Assembly: GCF_008933115.1 (NCBI RefSeq)
Contig: NZ_WBVO01000016.1
Location: 1 to 37,078, forward strand
DNA length: 37,078 nucleotides
Reading direction: 5' to 3'
DNA from: Phaeocystidibacter luteus
Lineage (GTDB): Bacteria; Bacteroidota; Bacteroidia; Flavobacteriales; Schleiferiaceae
The notes below the pieces were generated by a model, which worked only from the letters and a program-made list of their open reading frames with translations, had not been told where the DNA came from and made no database searches. This document shows positions 36,614 through 37,071 of the stretch, one piece after another; position 1 is the first letter of the stretch; each line of letters opens with the position of its first letter. The translations under genes and the position numbers were made by a program.

Positions 36614-36656
36614 CACCCGCTTTGAACGGAATGAAACTGTGAGAAGCGATACATAT

Positions 36657-36736
36657 TCCTCCTTAGCTCAGTTGGTTAGAGTCCCGCACCTGCGGGATTA
36701 ATCAGAGGCCAGGTAGGGTAGACATAGAGAGATTAT
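36657..36736 (+). pseudogene. tRNA-Asn-derived tandem copy 1, hairpin in the anticodon arm
   Basis: The first 25 nt are identical to the intact tRNA-Asn (acceptor strand, D arm). The 5' side of the anticodon arm and first anticodon base are then replaced by the hairpin TCCCGC-ACCT-GCGGGA (36682-36697), and the sequence resumes TTAATCAGAGG. The T arm and 3' acceptor strand are missing; AGGTAGGGTAGACATAGAGA follows. It cannot be a normal tRNA. Confidence 0.8.
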
Positions 36737-36816
36737 TCCTCCTTAGCTCAGTTGGTTAGAGTCCCGCACCTGCGGGATTAATCAGAGGCTAGGTAGGAAA
36801 GACATAGAGAGATTAT
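36737..36816 (+). pseudogene. tRNA-Asn-derived tandem copy 2, hairpin in the anticodon arm
   Basis: An 80-bp tandem duplicate of copy 1 with a few substitutions, hairpin at 36762-36777. Here CTAGGTAGGA could pair with the 5' TCCTCCTTA strand at eight of nine positions, so a compact tRNA-like fold without a T arm is possible. Confidence 0.8.
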
Positions 36817-36890
36817 TCCTCCTTAGCTCAGTTGGTTAGAGCATCTGACTGTTAATCAGAGGGTCCTTGGTTCGAGCCCAAGAGGAGGAG
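36817..36890 (+). tRNA. trnN: tRNA-Asn (anticodon GTT)
   Basis: An intact 74-nt tRNA gene. The acceptor stem TCCTCCT / AGGAGGA is perfect, with discriminator G36890 and no encoded CCA. D arm GCTC-AGTTGGTTA-GAGC; anticodon arm TCTGA-CTGTTAA-TCAGA with anticodon GTT (Asn, codons AAC and AAU); T arm CTTGG-TTCGAGC-CCAAG. It is the third unit of a head-to-tail series with the two defective copies and is followed by a terminator. Confidence 0.97.
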
Positions 36891-36897
36891 CAACAAA

Positions 36898-36925
36898 AGC
36901 CTGGTCATTACGACTGGGCTTTTTT
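36898..36925 (+). terminator. Terminator of the tRNA-Asn gene
   Basis: Stem AGCCTGGTC / GACTGGGCT (9 bp, two G-U), loop ATTAC, followed by a T run. A near-identical copy follows the relic tRNA, so the duplicated unit included the terminator. Confidence 0.88.
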
Positions 36926-36931
36926 CGTTTT

Positions 36932-37036
36932 ATACCCTTCGCTCAGTTCCCCGCATAGGCGGGACAGGGGTTAGAGTCCCGCACTTGCGGGATTAATCAG
37001 AGGGTCTCCCGATGCGAAGCTATCGGGAAGGAGGAG
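36932..37036 (+). pseudogene. tRNA-Asn relic with hairpins in three arms
   Basis: A decayed tRNA-Asn copy that keeps GCTCAGTT, GGTTAGAG, TTAATCAGAGGGTC and the 3' AGGAGGAG. A 20-nt insertion in the D loop (36949-36968) contains CCCGC-ATAG-GCGGG. The 5' anticodon arm is replaced by TCCCGC-ACTT-GCGGGA (36977-36992), and the whole T arm by a 22-nt hairpin (37007-37028, stem TCCCGAT/ATCGGGA around GCGAAGC). The 5' acceptor strand no longer pairs. It is followed by its own copy of the terminator. Confidence 0.85.
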
Positions 37037-37044
37037 CAAAAGAA

Positions 37045-37071
37045 AGCCTGGTCATGAGACTGGGCTTTTTT
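37045..37071 (+). terminator. Terminator copy after the tRNA relic
   Basis: Stem AGCCTGGTC / GACTGGGCT, loop ATGA, then six T. Same stem as the terminator at 36898, with a changed loop. Confidence 0.85.

Follow-up and report, generated by a model that had tools for sequence, protein, structure and literature searches.

The window analysed here, 37,078 nt in length, is the whole of contig C8 of a 3.2-Mb genome (G000) assembled in 27 contigs. Near its end, downstream of genes that we take to encode PfkB- and LpxH-like proteins, an intact tRNA-Asn gene is accompanied by three broken copies (relics A1, A2 and B; Table 1). ARAGORN and Rfam called the intact gene and none of the relics in the window, and the predicted RNA folds of three relics depart from the cloverleaf. 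The first-pass annotation had described relic B as a tRNA-Asn copy whose arms were exchanged for hairpins, and comparison with the intact gene bears this out at each of the three positions. The 20-nt hairpin in the D loop is a pure insertion. At the 5′ anticodon arm, a 16-nt hairpin (TCCCGCACTTGCGGGA) stands in place of the 10 nt CATCTGACTG (tRNA 36842-36851), which cover the last D-stem base, base 26, the 5′ anticodon strand and three loop bases, and a 22-nt hairpin precisely replaces the 17-nt T arm CTTGGTTCGAGCCCAAG (tRNA 36866-36882). The further statement that the sequences between the arms were unchanged also holds: TTAATCAGAGGGTC and AGGAGGAG are letter-identical in relic B and the intact tRNA. 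The sole retained portion that differs is the 5′ acceptor part (ATACCCTTCG versus TCCTCCTTAG). One reservation is that, when relic B is folded as RNA by prediction, its D-loop insert and anticodon hairpin pair with one another and do not form two separate hairpins. Relics A1 and A2, tandem 80-nt units 5′ of the tRNA that the annotation had overlooked, show the same 10-to-16-nt swap as relic B. The duplicated unit also takes in the terminator-like stretch 3′ of the tRNA. The reported broken tRNA-Asn copy is real and is not unique: it is one case of a recurrent arrangement.

Table 1. Features at the end of the window and dispersed repeats elsewhere in the same genome (positions refer to the window unless a contig is given).
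Feature	Position	Strand	Called by
Relic A1: tRNA-Asn 5′ half, hairpin TCCCGCACCTGCGGGA replacing CATCTGACTG, then TTAATCAGAGG and spacer	36654..36733	+	
Hairpin TCCCGCACCTGCGGGA of relic A1	36682-36697	+	
Relic A2: tandem copy of A1, 96% over 80 nt; hairpin at 36762-36777	36734..36813	+	
Intact tRNA-Asn(GUU), parent of the copies	36817..36890	+	ARAGORN, Rfam
Terminator-like hairpin and T run 3′ of the tRNA	36895..36925	+	
Relic B: tRNA-Asn copy with three hairpins	36932..37036	+	
D-loop hairpin insert of relic B, 20 nt, no bases replaced	36949..36968	+	
16-nt hairpin TCCCGCACTTGCGGGA of relic B replacing 5′ anticodon arm, 10 nt lost	36977..36992	+	
22-nt hairpin of relic B exactly replacing 17-nt T stem-loop	37007..37028	+	
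Second copy of the terminator-like stretch, 3′ of relic B; contig end 7 nt further	37043..37071	+	
26-nt repeats	G000:C1:498368-499616, 652961-653172, 679177-679643, 833073-833459		

Another contig of the same genome, C23, opens with a relic (G000:C23:1-112) that carries the D-loop and anticodon hairpins of relic B together with a decayed T-arm hairpin. Directly after it lies a GIY-YIG frame (C23:117-527; PF01541 at 2.2e-15), and 3′ of this frame is another tRNA-like piece in which the hairpin TCCCGTACGCACGGGA precedes TTGGTTCGAGCCC. As judged from their fitting ends, C23 probably continues C8 across an assembly gap. Related relics were present in both congeners examined, G001 and G002. G002 carries one relic 5′ of its tRNA-Asn, where the contig ends, and a different contig (G002:C66) holds a downstream piece that has decayed. 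In G001, a single tRNA-Asn follows an LpxH-like gene with no relic upstream; the relic lies ∼5.8 kb downstream, beyond two large genes presumably of FG-GAP type; its hairpin in the anticodon region has decayed, and a second hairpin, in the variable region, is intact. Despite these relics, no GIY gene was found in G001 among ORFs of ≥90 aa within the 10.5 kb read. These two layouts indicate that the upstream array was gained or lost within the genus and that the downstream relic is probably older. The pattern AGAGTCCCGN{3,20}CGGGATT gave 5, 1 and 1 matches in the three congeners and its control 0 in each, which makes a chance origin unlikely; a scan of 88 family genomes with a like pattern found matches in these three congeners only. 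Fragments that we take to be of RHS type (L013:3692-4246 and L260:8136-9032) also neighbour the relics in both G000 and G001, at distances ranging from some hundreds to some thousands of bases.

We scanned GTDB genomes with GGTTAGAGTCCCGN{3,10}CGGGATT and obtained at least 119 stretches, of which the 80 listed by name comprise 72 with Bacteroidota names by our reading, 4 labelled Chlorobiota, 2 Magasanikbacteria and 2 only ‘uncultured bacterium’. The 119 loci listed hold 186 matches, 179 of them exactly 16 nt long, and in 109 of these loci, which were themselves chosen by a like pattern, the hairpin sits at the 5′ anticodon position of relic B. Among the listed loci, a common layout runs from tandem relics through tRNA-Asn, a terminator and a GIY-YIG gene to a further relic. 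The GIY frame ends in, or within ∼60 nt of, a tRNA copy in 59 of the 186 listed matches, and in 41 of these 59 an intact tRNA-Asn lies upstream, the median distance being 331 nt. A usual tail of the GIY protein, LAQLVRVPHVRD, is the translated tRNA copy and hairpin, and replacing 10 nt by 16 nt leaves its reading frame unbroken. No GIY ORF was detected by profile in 47 of the 119 listed loci, some of them short or near contig ends. The first-pass annotation had proposed a search for the hairpins beyond relic B and would have taken their absence from the rest of the genome as a refutation; they do recur, but mainly at tRNA/GIY-YIG loci. Besides the 186 matches, the same listed loci contain 89 extra TCCCG hairpins within 1.5 kb and 9 farther away; locus L173 accounts for 3 of the 9, as inverted tRNA-Asn copies. 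The extra hairpins sit in other relics, in T and D arms, in terminators and, in one case, within another hairpin. The N1-N6 pair is formed in 128 of 132 distinct hairpins by four pair types, against a mean of 51.4 and a maximum of 69 after shuffling. The hairpin is conserved as a hairpin, under a pairing constraint with compensatory pairs.

Several individual loci deserve mention. In L072 (6720-6790), a hairpin is nested in the loop of another hairpin inside a tRNA-Asn copy. In L079, L093, L097, L121 and L161, the terminator-like stem after a tRNA-Asn or relic is itself a TCCCG...CGGGA hairpin before the T run. Two loci labelled Magasanikbacteria (L100 and L101) show the same hairpin pattern 5′ of tRNA-Val(tac), L101 additionally with two GIY-YIG frames, so the arrangement may extend outside Bacteroidota.

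GIY-YIG loci were also sampled without regard to tRNA, using a profile of 12 GIY domains without their tails. As these domains come from tRNA-linked loci, distant GIY genes without a tRNA may escape the profile. At E ≤ 1e-10 it matched 66 of 148 phylum genomes, and several of these had tandem copies. We assembled 69 loci (set A) from 60 of the 66, mostly the best match of each genome; set A omits G000, G017, G111, G175, G217 and G240, and 9 of its loci are additional ones (the second or third) from 7 genomes. An intact tRNA was present in 60 of the 69 loci, compared with 0 of 20 control RAYT loci, and isotypes included Asn, Asp, Gly, Thr, Val, Ala, Lys, Ser, Met, Pro, Arg and Leu. In 55 of the 60 loci, a damaged copy of the locus's own tRNA lies on the same strand; the corresponding figure averages 5.3 of 60 for tRNAs of other isotypes and is 4 of 60 for the opposite strand. 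These damaged copies lie on one or either side of the GIY-YIG gene; some keep the T arm and others have several arms exchanged. One locus (L253; G146:C34:6988-9763) has eight tandem GIY-YIG matches with near-identical 3′ pieces and is a candidate for studying amplification of the unit. The combination of a small GIY-YIG gene, a tRNA and tRNA copies with an arm exchanged for a hairpin is a widespread and apparently undescribed bacterial arrangement; among the hits listed from the open-licence PMC literature, judged by titles and abstract beginnings, we found no earlier description of GIY-YIG/tRNA hairpins in Bacteroidota.

A strict filter, requiring a stem of ≥6 bp that fills 80% of the insert and dropping inserts <10 nt and tRNA gaps >30 nt, left 50 clean hairpin cases (tandem copies counted repeatedly) in 27 of the 69 loci. 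They affect the anticodon arm in 30 cases, the T arm in 15 and the D arm in 1, with 4 pure insertions, and span 12 anticodon types and 10 amino acids, the two Arg types by insertion only. Whole arms are exchanged in 14 of the 50, for example CTTGAATGGCATTCAAG for TCCCGAAAGCTTTCGGGA in tRNA-Ala, and tRNA bases are lost in 46. A hairpin can thus replace an existing stem-loop in many tRNAs, as the annotation had suggested from the single relic. The hairpin begins with TCCCG and ends with CGGGA in 36 of the 50. Hairpin types vary, and CCCCG..CGGGG, TCCGCC..GGCGGA and CTCCG..CGGAG also occur. Looser chains number 133, and outside the strict test the loci show other damage, looser matches or none.

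The replaced segments tend to be capable of folding back on themselves. In a list of distinct cases that also drops replaced segments <4 nt, 17 of 21 replaced segments of set A have two or more complementary end pairs; windows of equal length taken from the tRNAs concerned give an expectation of 1.7. With whole-arm exchanges set aside, the count is 7 of 11 (0.9 expected). The tendency is weaker in set B, which comprises the Asn-pattern loci and the window's genus: 7 of 21 (1.4 expected), and 2 of 7 (0.4 expected; p 0.05) without whole-arm cases. This self-complementarity suggests a folded strand as the intermediate, and the exchange probably proceeds via a folded single strand.

The GIY-YIG genes are small, with a domain of ∼85 aa, and often occur in tandem copies. 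Two members match PF01541 at 2.2e-15 and 3.3e-15, and Y5, Y16, G18, R26 and E64, among others, are invariant across 12 aligned members; the proteins thus have a GIY-YIG catalytic domain with conserved residues, as expected of a SegB-like homing endonuclease. UPF0213 proteins and SLX1, the latter a distant relative, are the nearest solved ones by sequence, and the Bacteroidota members resemble GIY-YIG proteins of this UPF0213/SLX1 type in Pfam assignment (PF01541) and sequence. No paper combining UPF0213, GIY-YIG and tRNA was found in the open-licence PMC literature.

We then compared the GIY lineages with their tRNAs on two trees, both built from ∼80 columns and weakly resolved. Mapping isotype onto a tree of 64 GIY domains, 56 of them labelled by tRNA, required 22 changes, against a mean of 39.1 after shuffling and a value as low in 0 of 200 shuffles, kinship uncorrected. 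An 11-row clade with 99* support contains 8 Asn rows and 3 without an intact tRNA in the locus and spans four family codes. Clustering is also seen for the two Lys rows and for Gly and Ser; it is weak for Pro and absent for Val, Asp and Met. As in homing systems, the gene stands at its presumed target, here taken to be the tRNA found in 60 of the 69 loci, and lineages keep that target. In tRNA-Asn the hairpin takes two positions, 5′ (before TTAATCA) and 3′ (after CTGTTA). All 62 5′-position rows fall on one side of a 99* branch, together with 1 unlabelled row; the 5′ label arose by selection of the loci in 60 of the 62, the grouping of their GIY genes did not. The first 3′-position pattern covered 3 set-A loci only, and their 3 rows lie apart from the 5′ group. 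As a loose 3′ pattern gave many chance hairpins, just the 7-bp set-A cases were used (L200, L201, L205 and L206); the fourth 3′-position locus, L201, lies in the 99* Asn clade of the isotype tree and is also apart. By this separation of 5′ and 3′ rows, hairpin position in tRNA-Asn follows nuclease lineage.

The closest tested precedent for a GIY-YIG enzyme acting on tRNA genes is SegB of phage T6. SegB cleaves within tRNA genes, and tandem amplification of the tRNA-segB segment depends both on its active site and on recombination genes (PMC13096335). Its motif, RAWTSGAAC, in our reading resembles the T-loop sequence on the other strand. Like the genes described here, the SegB genes of phages T4 and T6 are free-standing and lie beside tRNA genes of many isotypes in phages (PMC13096335). 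In contrast to phage-borne SegB, the Bacteroidota genes are chromosomal, occur in 66 of 148 sampled genomes, are small and single-domain, fall into lineages that cluster by tRNA type, and are accompanied by tRNA copies with exchanged hairpins; the parts of PMC13096335 consulted make no mention of hairpin exchange. A phage vehicle for the Bacteroidota units was considered and set aside: viral contigs gave 25 pattern matches, among which no relative was confirmed.

With moderate confidence, we favour a model where the relic arose as a side product of a free-standing GIY-YIG nuclease unit of homing type that is specific for one tRNA. The association of gene, tRNA and damaged copies is observed directly, whereas cutting and shielding are proposed to account for it. 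By analogy with SegB, the nuclease would cut its own cognate tRNA gene, and recombinational repair would then amplify the segment that carries tRNA and nuclease. A copy whose target arm had been exchanged for a hairpin would be neither cut nor read as tRNA, and such copies would accumulate as a shielded array while the intact tRNA was kept. The exchange of one stem-loop for another might occur by template switching at hairpins or by nicking at the base of a hairpin; SLX1, one of the nearest solved relatives, is a structure-specific nuclease. Several points count against the model. Because the intact tRNA adjoins the nuclease gene, the putative cutter would need to have low activity, be under regulation or recognize something beyond the arm. 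Some copies keep the T arm and others have several arms exchanged, more than shielding of one site needs. The strict filter is passed by 27 of the 69 loci, some GIY-lacking genomes are rich in TCCCGN6CGGGA sites (43 in G229 and 42 in G214), the searches described above found no GIY ORF in G001 or in 47 of the 119 listed loci, and some isotypes do not cluster on the tree. The sequences gave no sign of transfer between genomes.

An alternative that leaves the nuclease out of hairpin placement is selection at the RNA level: tRNA copies might harm translation, or trigger tRNA processing of the leader and GIY message, so that fold-destroying hairpins were kept. The window does contain exactly one intact tRNA beside its broken copies, the hairpins are under a pairing constraint, and the GIY frames that end in or beside a tRNA copy (59 of 186 listed matches) mean that tRNA processing could cut the GIY message. 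However, deletion or point mutation would be a simpler way to inactivate a copy, and such selection leaves unexplained both the one shared hairpin type and the tRNA-Asn position that follows GIY lineage. We consider this account unlikely, though it is the strongest competitor of the homing-type unit.

Alternatively, the hairpin could be the nuclease's own recognition or end structure, pasted over stem-loops as a minimal non-autonomous element. Consistent with this, TCCCGN6CGGGA is commoner in GIY-bearing genomes (median 12 versus 4; Mann-Whitney p 3e-7, kinship uncorrected), the hairpins at these loci also sit in terminators, D arms and, once, another hairpin, and SLX1 is a distant solved relative. 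Yet the hairpin types vary, as listed above, some GIY-lacking genomes are rich in such sites (43 in G229 and 42 in G214), and we know of no GIY-YIG enzyme that joins DNA. We regard such an element as distinctly improbable.

A route that the first-pass annotation had named alongside template switching, in which a RAYT (TnpA-REP) Y1 transposase puts REP palindromes into tRNA copies, fared worse. The two systems are alike in having short conserved palindromes, a nuclease-type partner gene and many copies per genome. The RAYT search that the annotation proposed showed these genes to be common (PF01797 in 106 of 148 genomes) and to co-occur with GIY genes (59 of 66 versus 47 of 82; Fisher p 1.7e-5, kinship uncorrected). 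In addition, the T-arm hairpin of relic B has GCGAAGC in common with a dispersed 26-nt repeat of the G000 genome, and some hairpins may therefore derive from dispersed repeats. However, the partner here is a GIY-YIG and not a Y1 HUH protein, and the palindromes neither flank the Y1 HUH gene at the RAYT loci examined nor are confined to transposase-bearing genomes. The TCCCG hairpin was found at 0 of 20 chosen RAYT loci from the phylum sample, several of which have other palindromes, and at 2 of 10 loci nearer the window's genome, where each had one such hairpin that was not part of flanking repeats. In 7 of the 66 genomes with GIY genes the search gave no Y1_Tnp match (E ≤ 0.001), yet the hairpin median in these is 10, and one of them, G223, carries clean hairpins (L192). 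RAYT-type insertion is not known to remove target bases, whereas the listed distinct cases lose 4-18 nt; most hairpins here replace a stem-loop instead of inserting cleanly, and they are concentrated at tRNA loci. A RAYT/REP origin is, on this evidence, very improbable.

TCCCG-type palindromes do occur elsewhere in these genomes. The 101 TCCCGN6CGGGA copies of G110 suggested a general REP, a candidate that we rejected: in the five contexts that we read, the copies belong to a dispersed GTCATTCCCGCGAAGGCGGGAATCCA-type repeat and do not resemble the hairpin at G110's own GIY/tRNA-Ala locus. Eight 16-nt hairpins outside tRNAs were read in G000, three being copies of one repeat and five lying in other contexts, one apparently in what we take to be a cobalamin-riboswitch-like stretch. 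Contig C1 of G000 contains 26-nt repeats of the TCCCGAATCGGCTTCGCCTCTCGGGA type, tandem and dispersed and in places 93 nt apart; this type is the commonest TCCCG family among the listed G000 places.

Rickettsia palindromic elements, to which the annotation had also pointed, likewise place palindromes within genes, in frame in proteins, but they are longer than the hairpins here and insert, whereas ours mostly replace: only 4 of the 50 clean cases, and also the D-loop insert of relic B, are pure insertions. We know of no nuclease gene beside them. Ordinary decay of drifting tandem duplicates, with hairpins arising by chance, can be dismissed as exceedingly improbable: old copies do degrade (as in the C23 relic's T-arm hairpin and G002:C66), but the flanks are letter-perfect, the hairpin sequence type is fixed with compensatory pairs, and 186 matches are listed in at least 119 GTDB stretches.

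Beyond the homing-type unit itself, we tentatively propose, as a bolder and rather less probable generalization, a class of selfish units in which isotype-specific GIY-YIG nucleases make tRNA copies uncuttable and untranslatable by an undescribed stem-loop exchange, the hairpin position being a fossil of the cut site. The idea is directly testable in vitro, because hairpin position would, if it is right, predict the target of each enzyme. An odd relic at a contig end has led to a pattern that spans the phylum and has a clear partner gene. If the proposal is true, chromosomal GIY-YIG genes known by their domain alone would be tRNA-specific homing-type nucleases, bacterial tRNA gene families would gain a driver of duplication and decay, and these loci would be a natural system that swaps one hairpin for another at single-base precision.
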